Shown in pieces: positions 37,476-39,703 of a stretch of 64,000 bases of DNA. Within the stretch, counting starts at the first letter, position 1. Each line of letters opens with the position of its first letter. Source of the DNA: Sedimentibacter sp. zth1 (GTDB lineage: Bacteria > Bacillota > Clostridia > Tissierellales > Sedimentibacteraceae). The notes beneath the pieces are model-generated. The model saw only the letters and a list, made by a program, of their open reading frames with translations, ran no database searches and was not told the origin of the DNA. The translations under genes and the position numbers were made by a program. The DNA lies in contig NZ_CP071445.1 of the NCBI RefSeq assembly GCF_017352195.1, forward strand, positions 806,001 through 870,000, in the 5' to 3' direction.

Positions 37476-37504
37476 TTGACATACTATTTATTACATGGTA
37501 TTAT
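37476..37504 (+). promoter_or_regulatory. Promoter of the ZTP-riboswitch/purine operon
   Basis: TTGACA (37,476-37,481), 17 bp, then TATTAT (37,499-37,504). It would start transcription about 30 nt before the aptamer. Confidence 0.78.
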
Positions 37505-37537
37505 CAAATTAATTCGTAGTAGTAATTTATTTACTGC

Positions 37538-37607
37538 ATATATGACTGACGGAAGTGGAATTAACCACAGGGAATATAGTTATGGATTTACAGCCGACCG
37601 TCTGGGC
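37538..37607 (+). promoter_or_regulatory. ZTP (pfl) riboswitch aptamer
   Basis: ATGACTGACGG, TAACCACAGGGAA and CCGACCGTCTGGGC are the three conserved blocks of the pfl motif (usual 3' block CCGxCCGCCUGGGC). The RNA senses ZTP/ZMP, which builds up when 10-formyl-THF is short. It lies directly ahead of the purine genes that consume ZMP, so binding should turn expression on. Confidence 0.9.
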
Positions 37608-37635
37608 AATTAGTGCTCAGAGTGTCGGTTTTTTT
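37594..37635 (+). terminator. ZTP riboswitch terminator
   Basis: CCGACCGTCTGGGC pairs imperfectly with GCTCAGAGTGTCGG, followed by seven T. The 5' arm is the conserved 3' block of the aptamer, so ligand-bound RNA cannot form it. Confidence 0.88.
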
Positions 37636-37663
37636 ATTTATATAAATTATGGAGGTTATTTAA

Positions 37664-38377
37664 ATGCAAATCAGAAGCTTAGAAACAGAATTAAAATCAA
37701 ATTCTTATCCAGGAAGAGGAATTGTAATCGGTAAATCAAAAAATGGTAAATATGCTGTTACTGCATACTTCATCATGGGAAGAAGTGAAAATTCAAGAAA
37801 CAGGATTTTTGAAGAAGTCGGAACTGGAATTAGAACAAAAGCCTTTGATCCGTCAAAACTAACTGATCCAAGTTTAATTATTTATGCTCCTGTTAGAGTA
37901 CTTGGAAACAAAACGATAGTTACAAATGGTGATCAAACTGACACTATATTTGAAGGAATGGATAAGCAGTTAACTTTTGAGCAATCTTTACGTACCAGAG
38001 AATTCGAGCCCGACGCGCCAAATTACACACCAAGGATTTCCGGTATCATGCATTTAGAAAATAATACGTTTAACTATGCATTGTCAATTTTAAAAAGCAA
38101 CAACGGGAATCCAACTGCCTGCAACCGCTATACATTTGCATACGAAAATCCATTGAACGGTGAAGGACATTTTATTCATACTTACATGGGTGATGGTAAT
38201 CCTCTACCAAGCTTCGAAGGTGAGCCAACATTAGTTGAAATAAAAAATAATATTGATGAATTTACTGAGATGCTTTGGGAAAGTTTAAATATAGATAACA
38301 AAGTTTCTCTATTTGTCAGATATATTGAAATAGAAACAGGAAATTATAAATCAAGAATTATAAACAAGAATAAGTAA
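37664..38377 (+). CDS. purO: IMP cyclohydrolase, PurO-like
   Basis: The 237-aa protein resembles the archaeal-type IMP cyclohydrolase: SYPGRGIVIGKSKNGKYAVTAYFIMGRSENSRNR, FDPSKLTDPSLIIYAPVR and THTYMGDGNPLPSFEGEP-like segments. It closes the FAICAR ring to IMP, the last step of purine synthesis. It replaces the missing N-terminal half of the bifunctional PurH and is followed 45 bp later by the formyltransferase gene. GGAGG precedes the ATG. Expression is under the ZTP riboswitch. Confidence 0.9.
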   Translation: MQIRSLETELKSNSYPGRGIVIGKSKNGKYAVTAYFIMGRSENSRNRIFEEVGTGIRTKAFDPSKLTDPSLIIYAPVRVLGNKTIVTNGDQTDTIFEGMDKQLTFEQSLRTREFEPDAPNYTPRISGIMHLENNTFNYALSILKSNNGNPTACNRYTFAYENPLNGEGHFIHTYMGDGNPLPSFEGEPTLVEIKNNIDEFTEMLWESLNIDNKVSLFVRYIEIETGNYKSRIINKNK

Positions 38378-38422
38378 TAATTATTTTTAAAAAATATATA
38401 TAATAATACAGGAGTTTATAAA

Positions 38423-39601
38423 ATGAATGAATTAGAATTAAAATATGGTTGTAACCCTAATCAAAAACCATCACGAATATTTATGAAAAACGGAAAAGAC
38501 TTACCTATAAAAGTATTGAGTGGAAAACCCGGCTATATAAATTTTCTTGATGCATTTAACGGATGGCAGTTAGTTAAAGAATTAAAAGAAGCAACAGGAC
38601 TACCTGCAGCAACATCATTTAAGCATGTATCACCTGCAGGTGCCGCTGTAGGATTACCATTGAGTGATACACTTAAAAAAATATATTTTGTTGACGACAT
38701 GGGAGAATTATCACCTTTGGCATGTGCTTATGCAAGAGCAAGAGGTGCTGACAGAATGTCATCTTTCGGTGATTTCATTTCTTTATCAGATGTATGTGAT
38801 GTTGATACAGCTAAAATTATAAAAAGAGAAGTTTCAGACGGAGTTATAGCACCCGGATATGAACCCGAAGCACTAGAAATACTTAAATCAAAAAAGGGTG
38901 GAAAATACAATGTTATAGAAATTGACCCTACCTACTCTCCTGAGCCGGTTGAGCACAAGCAAGTTTTCGGAATTACATTCGAACAAGGAAGAAACGAACT
39001 TAAAATAAATGAAGAATTACTTAAAAACATTGTTACAAATAATAAAGAGTTACCAAAACAGGCTAATATAGATTTGATTATCTCACTTATTACACTAAAA
39101 TATACTCAGTCTAATTCTGTATGCTTTGCTAAAGACGGTCAAGCAATCGGAATAGGCGCAGGACAGCAATCTCGTGTTCATTGTACAAGACTTGCAGGTC
39201 AAAAAGCTGATAACTGGTTACTTCGCCAATCTCCTAAAGTACTGAATTTACAATTTGCAGACAATATAGGCAGAGCTGTCAGAGACAACGCAATCGACAA
39301 TTATATAGGTGATGAATATATGGATGTTTTAGCCGAAGGTGCATGGCAAAGAGTATTCAAGGTTAAACCAGAAATATTTACAAAAGAAGAAAAACGTGCA
39401 TGGTTAAATCAAATGGACAACGTAGCACTAGGTTCTGACGCATTCTTCCCATTCAGCGATAATATAGAAAGAGCTAAAAAAAGCGGTGTAAAATATATAG
39501 CTCAACCTGGTGGTTCAATAAGAGATGATGCAGTTATAGAATGTTGTGATAAATACAATATGGTTATGTCATTTACAGGTATTAGACTGTTCCATCATTA
39601 A
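38423..39601 (+). CDS. purH: AICAR formyltransferase (stand-alone PurH transformylase domain)
   Basis: The 392-aa protein corresponds to the AICAR transformylase part of PurH only. It has [23 protein letters not shown] with the catalytic Lys-His pair, [31 protein letters not shown] and the C-terminal PGGSIRDD...FTGIRLFHH. It transfers formyl from 10-formyl-THF to AICAR (ZMP), making the substrate of the PurO-like partner upstream. Placement behind a ZTP riboswitch fits, since ZMP is its own substrate. Confidence 0.93.
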
Positions 39602-39654
39602 ATAATTTAAAACAATAAAAACTTTCTATTTTGATAAAAATACTAACGTAAATT

Positions 39655-39703
39655 AAACAACAGCTTTCGATAGATTTGAAAAATCGAATGCTGTTGTTTT
39701 TAA
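39655..39703 (+). terminator. Terminator of the purO-purH operon
   Basis: AAACAACAGC-TTCGAT pairs with ATCGAA-GCTGTTGTTT and is followed by T-rich sequence. Beyond it, 39,704-40,054 holds no gene that I can see. Confidence 0.82.

Follow-up and report, generated by a model that had tools for sequence, protein, structure and literature searches.

We analyzed a stretch of 64,000 nucleotides from the genome of Sedimentibacter sp. zth1 (here called the window), in which positions 37476-39703 hold the following features:

37476-37504 (+): promoter, TTGACA-17-TATTAT with a TG before the -10 hexamer (consensus scan, 11/12 matches)
37532-37614 (+): ZMP/ZTP riboswitch aptamer (pfl motif), RF01750 (covariance model, 55.0 bits)
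37592-37635 (+): intrinsic terminator, 7 + 8 pairs and then a T run (leader fold, pair coordinates)
37664-38377 (+): purO, IMP cyclohydrolase, 237 aa (PF07826, fold match)
38423-39601 (+): purV, stand-alone AICAR formyltransferase, 392 aa (NF005492, PDB matches)
39655-39699 (+): hairpin with T-rich sequence 3' of it (fold, -19.1 kcal/mol)

The limits 37476-39703, taken over from the original prediction, fit a single transcription unit running from the promoter to the last hairpin. The promoter is the best promoter-like site in the scanned stretch and has a perfect -35 hexamer, in a scan that gave 19 sites vs 13.0 in shuffled sequences; transcription is predicted to start at about 37511. The closing hairpin (z -5.40, none of 200 shuffles equal) is probably the end of the purO-purV transcription unit. 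The sequences GGAGGT and AGGAG stand 5' of purO and purV, respectively, and since the plus strand holds no other ORF of at least 90 aa between 35404 and 41294, the locus reads as a two-gene unit. Its upstream neighbours are genes for a radical SAM protein and a GNAT acetyltransferase, and three minus-strand ORFs without Pfam matches flank the unit on either side. The order given in the original prediction, a pfl motif directly before a cyclohydrolase and a stand-alone AICAR formyltransferase, is present in the sequence as matches to RF01750, PF07826, and NF005492. Elsewhere in the window three group II introns lie on the minus strand (43024-44884, 50928-52787, and 59334-61193); they are 98.8-99.8% identical over 1.9-2.1 kb, and their reverse transcriptases are 419 aa long in two cases and cut to 245 aa in the middle one. 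The first part of a 205-aa gene resembling a membrane transporter (29441-30058) is also duplicated in shortened form (34002-34277); at the DNA level the copied segments span 183 and 85 bases and are 98% and 95% identical, respectively.

A covariance search for the pfl motif placed RF01750 at 37532-37614 (+) with a score above the gathering score of 39 bits (E 3.4e-6 over the window), and this is the single RF01750 match in the whole genome at E up to 0.001. The leader from 37505 to 37650 folds at -39.5 kcal/mol (z -4.25, none of 200 shuffles as good). Its expression platform is a terminator overlapping P3: the aptamer's P3 motif lies at 37593-37607, inside the 5' arm of the terminator (37592-37608), so that aptamer and terminator are mutually exclusive. 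This terminator, which has a 2x2 internal loop, was missed by a simple terminator scan. In 36 aptamers (the window's and those of 35 related purO loci) we compared the strands of the P1-P2 junction and the P3 loop, GACGG:CCGTC in the window, which we take to be the riboswitch pseudoknot. They read GACGG:CCGTC in 15/36 aptamers (the window's included), GGCGG:CCGCC in 16/36, and GGTGG:CCGCC, with a wobble pair, in 1/36; one pair is broken in the three with GACGG:CCGCC (L028, L042, and L047), and the last one (L061) has GGCGA with TCGCC on the opposite strand, which lay outside the search pattern and was read from the sequence. Such two-sided changes argue for a conserved aptamer. A chance riboswitch match was ruled out by the covariance score, the covariation, and the terminator.

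Higher expression at higher ligand concentration has been predicted for the pfl RNA from terminators that overlap its 3' part (PMC2864571), subsequent work showed that this RNA class has ZMP and ZTP as its ligands (PMC7266159), and the ZMP switch of Thermosinus carboxydivorans is described as a transcriptional ON switch (PMC7337938). The leader analyzed here resembles the ON-type ZMP-ZTP riboswitch in its aptamer, its pseudoknot, and a terminator overlapping the 3' part; it differs in its target, which here is purO-purV and not purH. Among the papers searched, none combines a ZTP riboswitch with purO; Kim et al. in 2015, who reportedly validated the ZMP-ZTP riboswitch class, may list purO among the targets.

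The purV product matches NF005492 over the full model (1-390 of 390) at 729 bits against a cut-off of 415, and it is without the cyclohydrolase domain. Against the model of bifunctional PurH, TIGR00355, it reached 306.8 bits, short of the 528 required, and it aligned with model positions 206-511 only. The closest PDB chain is 7mgq (513 bits). ATIC-type chains (1p4r, 5uy8, 1g8m, and 1m9n, a group that presumably holds human and avian ATIC) scored 476-483 bits vs 84-101 bits for 4ehi, 9ou7, 1zcz, and 3zzm, which we take to be bacterial PurH. Of the label "PurH-transformylase" in the original prediction, the stand-alone AICAR formyltransferase is upheld by the NF005492 score, whereas by its PDB scores the enzyme is not half of the usual bacterial PurH. 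The motif SFKHVSPAG, with the catalytic Lys-His pair, is found at residue 65. The likeness to the stand-alone AICAR formyltransferase PRK07106 / NF005492 is full-length with no sequence difference seen; what differs is the setting, as the gene here sits 3' of a riboswitch-led purO. We take PRK07106 / NF005492 to be the PurV of Guedes et al. (2019), who reportedly name purV and purJ.

The purO product matches PF07826 at 244.3 bits (cut-off 28.1, E 1e-72) over residues 15-222 of 237 and scores below both archaeal purO equivalog cut-offs (50.7 vs 150, and 44.5 vs 158.35 for TIGR01922); by its sequence it is filed as a bacterial branch of PF07826, outside the TIGR01922 equivalog. An AlphaFold2 model built from 35 aligned rows (mean pLDDT 88.8) has its best PDB matches in 1kuu, 2ntk, and 2ntm, the PurO of M. 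thermautotrophicus (MthPurO), with Z scores of 21.3-21.4 and Foldseek E-values of about 1e-10; the next-best fold match after PurO entries is TANGO2 with a Z score of 11.6. The Ntn-hydrolase fold is the same (1kuu, 2ntk; Z 21.4 over 193-196 residues) at about 19% identity, and the chain has 237 residues here vs 202 in 1kuu. IMP cyclohydrolase activity is predicted by carry-over from this distant relative, at 18-20% identity in the structural match of the model. Tyr74, Glu115, and Arg47 are invariant in 35/35 rows, Tyr74 and Glu115 stand opposite residues of the same kind in the alignment to MthPurO, and Arg45, also aligned with MthPurO, is nearly invariant (Gln in 2/35 rows). The residue numbers of the catalytic Arg, Glu, and Tyr are our assumption; judging from the alignment, the catalytic Arg may be either Arg45 or Arg47. 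Were the protein some other Ntn-fold protein and FAICAR closed by another enzyme, the scores under the cut-offs of both PurO equivalog models, the 19% identity to MthPurO over 196 aligned residues, and the Gln at the position of the aligned Arg45 would all be accommodated. This reading has against it the Z score for PurO, far above that of TANGO2, as well as the invariant Tyr74, Glu115, and Arg47, two of them aligned with MthPurO, and the distribution of the genes described below is a further argument against it. In a paper on the archaeal enzyme, PurO catalysis is attributed to Arg, Glu, and Tyr residues, and Thermococcus kodakarensis TK0430 is described as converting FAICAR to IMP and as allowing growth of an E. 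coli auxotroph without purH2 (PMC6797443). Here PurO has as its partner an AICAR formyltransferase of the folate-dependent family in place of PurP.

The genome of Sedimentibacter sp. zth1 (a single contig of 3,133,930 bases with a completeness of 98.83) gave one match to AICARFT (PF01808), which is purV, one to PurO (PF07826), and one to RF01750. Bifunctional purH was not found in profile searches of this one-contig genome. The single MGS domain lies inside a frame of 148 aa, which is too short for PurH and which, by its size, we read as methylglyoxal synthase. A hidden second PurH was ruled out by the one PF01808 match and the one MGS match, and a mixed draft assembly was ruled out since the genome is a single contig. 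The pair had been proposed to replace bifunctional PurH, and with purV as the sole PF01808 match and no purH elsewhere this proposal is supported. The other purine genes are arranged as follows:

C1:2021500-2036500 (L098): purine operon, holding in this order the C-terminal portion of a large purL, purE, purC, purF, purM, purN, and purD

The genes purE, purC, purF, purM, purN, and purD are over their NCBIfam cut-offs and, with these and part of purL present, the pathway needs its last two steps. Three relatives from the family (G468, read directly, and G469 and G444, judged by where their PurH matches lie) have the same operon order with purH between purN and purD; in Sedimentibacter sp. zth1 purH is missing from the operon and the purN-purD gap is 118 bp. 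A purH remnant in this gap was rejected: a relative's PurH, run by tblastn on 400 bases spanning the gap, had no match at E up to 10, and within the window the same query matched purV alone. Inside the gap (L098 6620-6737), GGTGCAGTAA...TTACTGCACC forms a perfect inverted repeat that may be a scar or a hairpin element. For hisF there were two weak matches in the genome, none over the cut-off, which makes histidine synthesis an unlikely source of ZMP and the purine line probably the only one.

In an evenly drawn sample of 291 genomes of the class Clostridia, PurO was found in 133 (132 over the family cut-off and G196 below it), PurH over its cut-off in 121, and RF01750 in 80, the last being counted under stricter filters, which miss some of the weaker RNA matches. 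PurO and full PurH occurred together in two genomes (G159 and G235), which could be three as 120 of the 121 PurH genomes entered the co-occurrence comparison, vs about 55 by chance; 131/133 PurO genomes had no listed full PurH. This avoidance has a Fisher p of 2e-43, for related genomes that are not independent, and 40/291 genomes had neither PurO nor a listed full PurH. When the rows were compared by eye, 15 class genomes (zth1 among them) had RF01750 no more than about 160 bases upstream of purO, and a further 18 had it about 2-6 kb upstream, on the contig and strand of purO. The original prediction had regarded a PurO-like enzyme in a bacterium as less usual, which is not borne out by the 133 genomes that carry it; neither bacterial PurO nor its riboswitch control is rare in the class Clostridia. 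In the literature, PurO is described as an archaeal signature (PMC3261824), it is called exclusive to Archaea in a 2014 paper (PMC4177761), PurO-like genes are counted in 22/1266 bacteria (PMC6797443, citing Guedes et al., 2019), and PurO Bpr_I0731 is named in the proteome of Butyrivibrio proteoclasticus (PMC5217386). Compared with known cases of bacterial PurO, the present one occurs in a family whose 26 other examined genomes have purH matches and no PurO.

The nearest purO loci, which are the best 80 of at least 551 confirmed loci in named genomes and lean to close relatives, come mostly from Lachnospiraceae, with PurO 77-85% identical to that of the window. In all 80 purV is found 13-444 bases downstream of purO (as a partial match in 4/80). 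Of the 80 loci, 35 have RF01750 in the roughly 320 bases before purO and 45 gave no match at the gathering score; in two of the latter (L021 and L037) the upstream sequence amounts to just 184 and 4 bases, respectively. The riboswitch therefore appears optional to the purO-purV pair. The constant pairing with purV in these 80 loci and the near exclusion of full purH by purO in the class sample both speak against another Ntn-fold protein, which we consider very improbable, and we retain the assignment as PurO. In two Lachnospiraceae loci purV is followed at a distance of less than 200 bases by a TwoAYGGAY RNA (RF01731, a class with no known role), in one case on the plus strand (L012 6106-6270) and in the other on the minus strand (L008 5963-6118).

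Within the order Tissierellales PurO was found in 11/249 genomes (zth1 included) and PurH over the cut-off in 217. None of 26 other genomes of the family Sedimentibacteraceae has PurO; 23 have a near-full-scoring PurH match with E 2e-200 or better, and the remaining three, which are draft genomes (G454, G457, and G463), have weaker PurH matches. The order's ten other PurO genomes encode proteins with 43-50% identity to the window PurO, and in the tree these fall outside the group made up of the window and the 80 loci. The window PurO shares 85% identity with a protein from Lachnospiraceae, and PurV 88%. In one genome of the order (G245) a PurN-like part and PurO share one frame of 477 aa (L094 736-2169) inside a purine operon, with purV and then purD downstream (L103 3736-9268), and four more genomes of its genus have PurO frames of 468-574 aa, which may be the same PurN-PurO fusion.

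A gain of purO-purV by transfer, together with the loss of purH, is in our judgment quite probable. The phylogeny of the cyclohydrolase, which the original prediction had called for, sets the window PurO apart from the order's other ten and does not fix the donor, as the window row stands on a long end branch (0.61) and in no small starred set. Nor is the donor fixed by the PurV tree, which is of a quick kind and leaves out the 4/80 loci with partial genes; the 80 loci were chosen for likeness. The G+C content is 0.337 for purO + purV, 0.311 for the purine operon, and 0.288 for the window, and for whole loci it is 0.36-0.38 in L018, L028, and L047, 0.447 in L008, and 0.278 in L019; this pattern mildly fits transfer. 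If instead purO-purV were old in the family and lost by the relatives, with no horizontal gain, the failure of the PurO tree to place the window row inside Lachnospiraceae would be expected, and so would the riboswitch-purO-purV arrangement of Intestinibacter bartlettii (Peptostreptococcaceae, L019). Such an origin is decidedly unlikely in view of the absence of PurO from the 26 other family genomes, its presence in 11/249 of the order, the identities of 43-50% for the order's other ten PurOs vs 77-85% for the best 80 of at least 551 loci, and the position of purH within the operon of the three relatives examined. We thus prefer gain by transfer.

It is likely that the riboswitch arrived along with purO-purV, and this is less sure since RF01750 is present in 14/26 other family genomes, a count made with the same stricter filters. 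The cassette might have consisted of purO and purV only, with a riboswitch native to the family placed upstream later; besides the 14/26 genomes, this has in its favor that RF01750 lies far from purH in the two genomes compared (G468 and G469, of one or two contigs) and that the five nearest PurO rows are mixed, L019 and L065 having RF01750 and L009, L010, and L016 being without it. The four nearest PurV rows (L018, L026, L028, and L047), by contrast, have RF01750 in the same position (the fifth, L014, is without it), and later placement of a native riboswitch seems to us unlikely. On balance we lean toward the movement of riboswitch-purO-purV (about 2.2 kb) between distant Clostridia as one piece that displaced an operon-bound core gene.

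The proposed mechanism, a ZTP riboswitch controlling an operon of PurO and AICAR formyltransferase, is supported by the anatomy of the locus as read from its sequence. Transcription would begin at about 37511, and when ZMP (AICAR ribotide) is low the leader is predicted to form the terminator at 37592-37635, so that few transcripts would reach the genes. When ZMP rises, for example when 10-formyl-tetrahydrofolate runs short, its predicted binding would stabilize the aptamer with the P3 hairpin and pseudoknot and occupy the 5' arm of the terminator; the predicted direction of the switch is thus read-through of RNA polymerase into purO and purV. PurV would then convert ZMP to FAICAR and PurO would convert FAICAR to IMP, lowering the ZMP signal. 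Since ZMP is the substrate of AICAR formyltransferase, the feedback loop amounts to substrate induction. In the predicted order of events, a Lachnospiraceae-like donor would have supplied the cassette, and the ancestral purH would have disappeared from its place between purN and purD. We concluded with good confidence that purO-purV is a self-regulated replacement for purH, gained as a cassette from such a donor with the ancestral purH lost.

All parts of this system are already known and the arrangement is common in the class Clostridia; what is notable here is that purO-purV appears to stand in place of a lost standard gene, purH. For the genome of Sedimentibacter sp. zth1 the analysis provides a supported account of which genes serve the last two purine steps, and it places PurO, described as archaeal, in 133/291 class genomes, almost always where full PurH is absent. 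The loss of purH from the operon together with a self-regulated substitute makes a clean case of non-homologous gene displacement. With a riboswitch that answers to the step's own substrate, the cassette would not have had to be connected to regulators of the host, and this would account for its ability to replace purH. If this is general, metabolite-sensing leaders may help the swapping of core metabolic genes.
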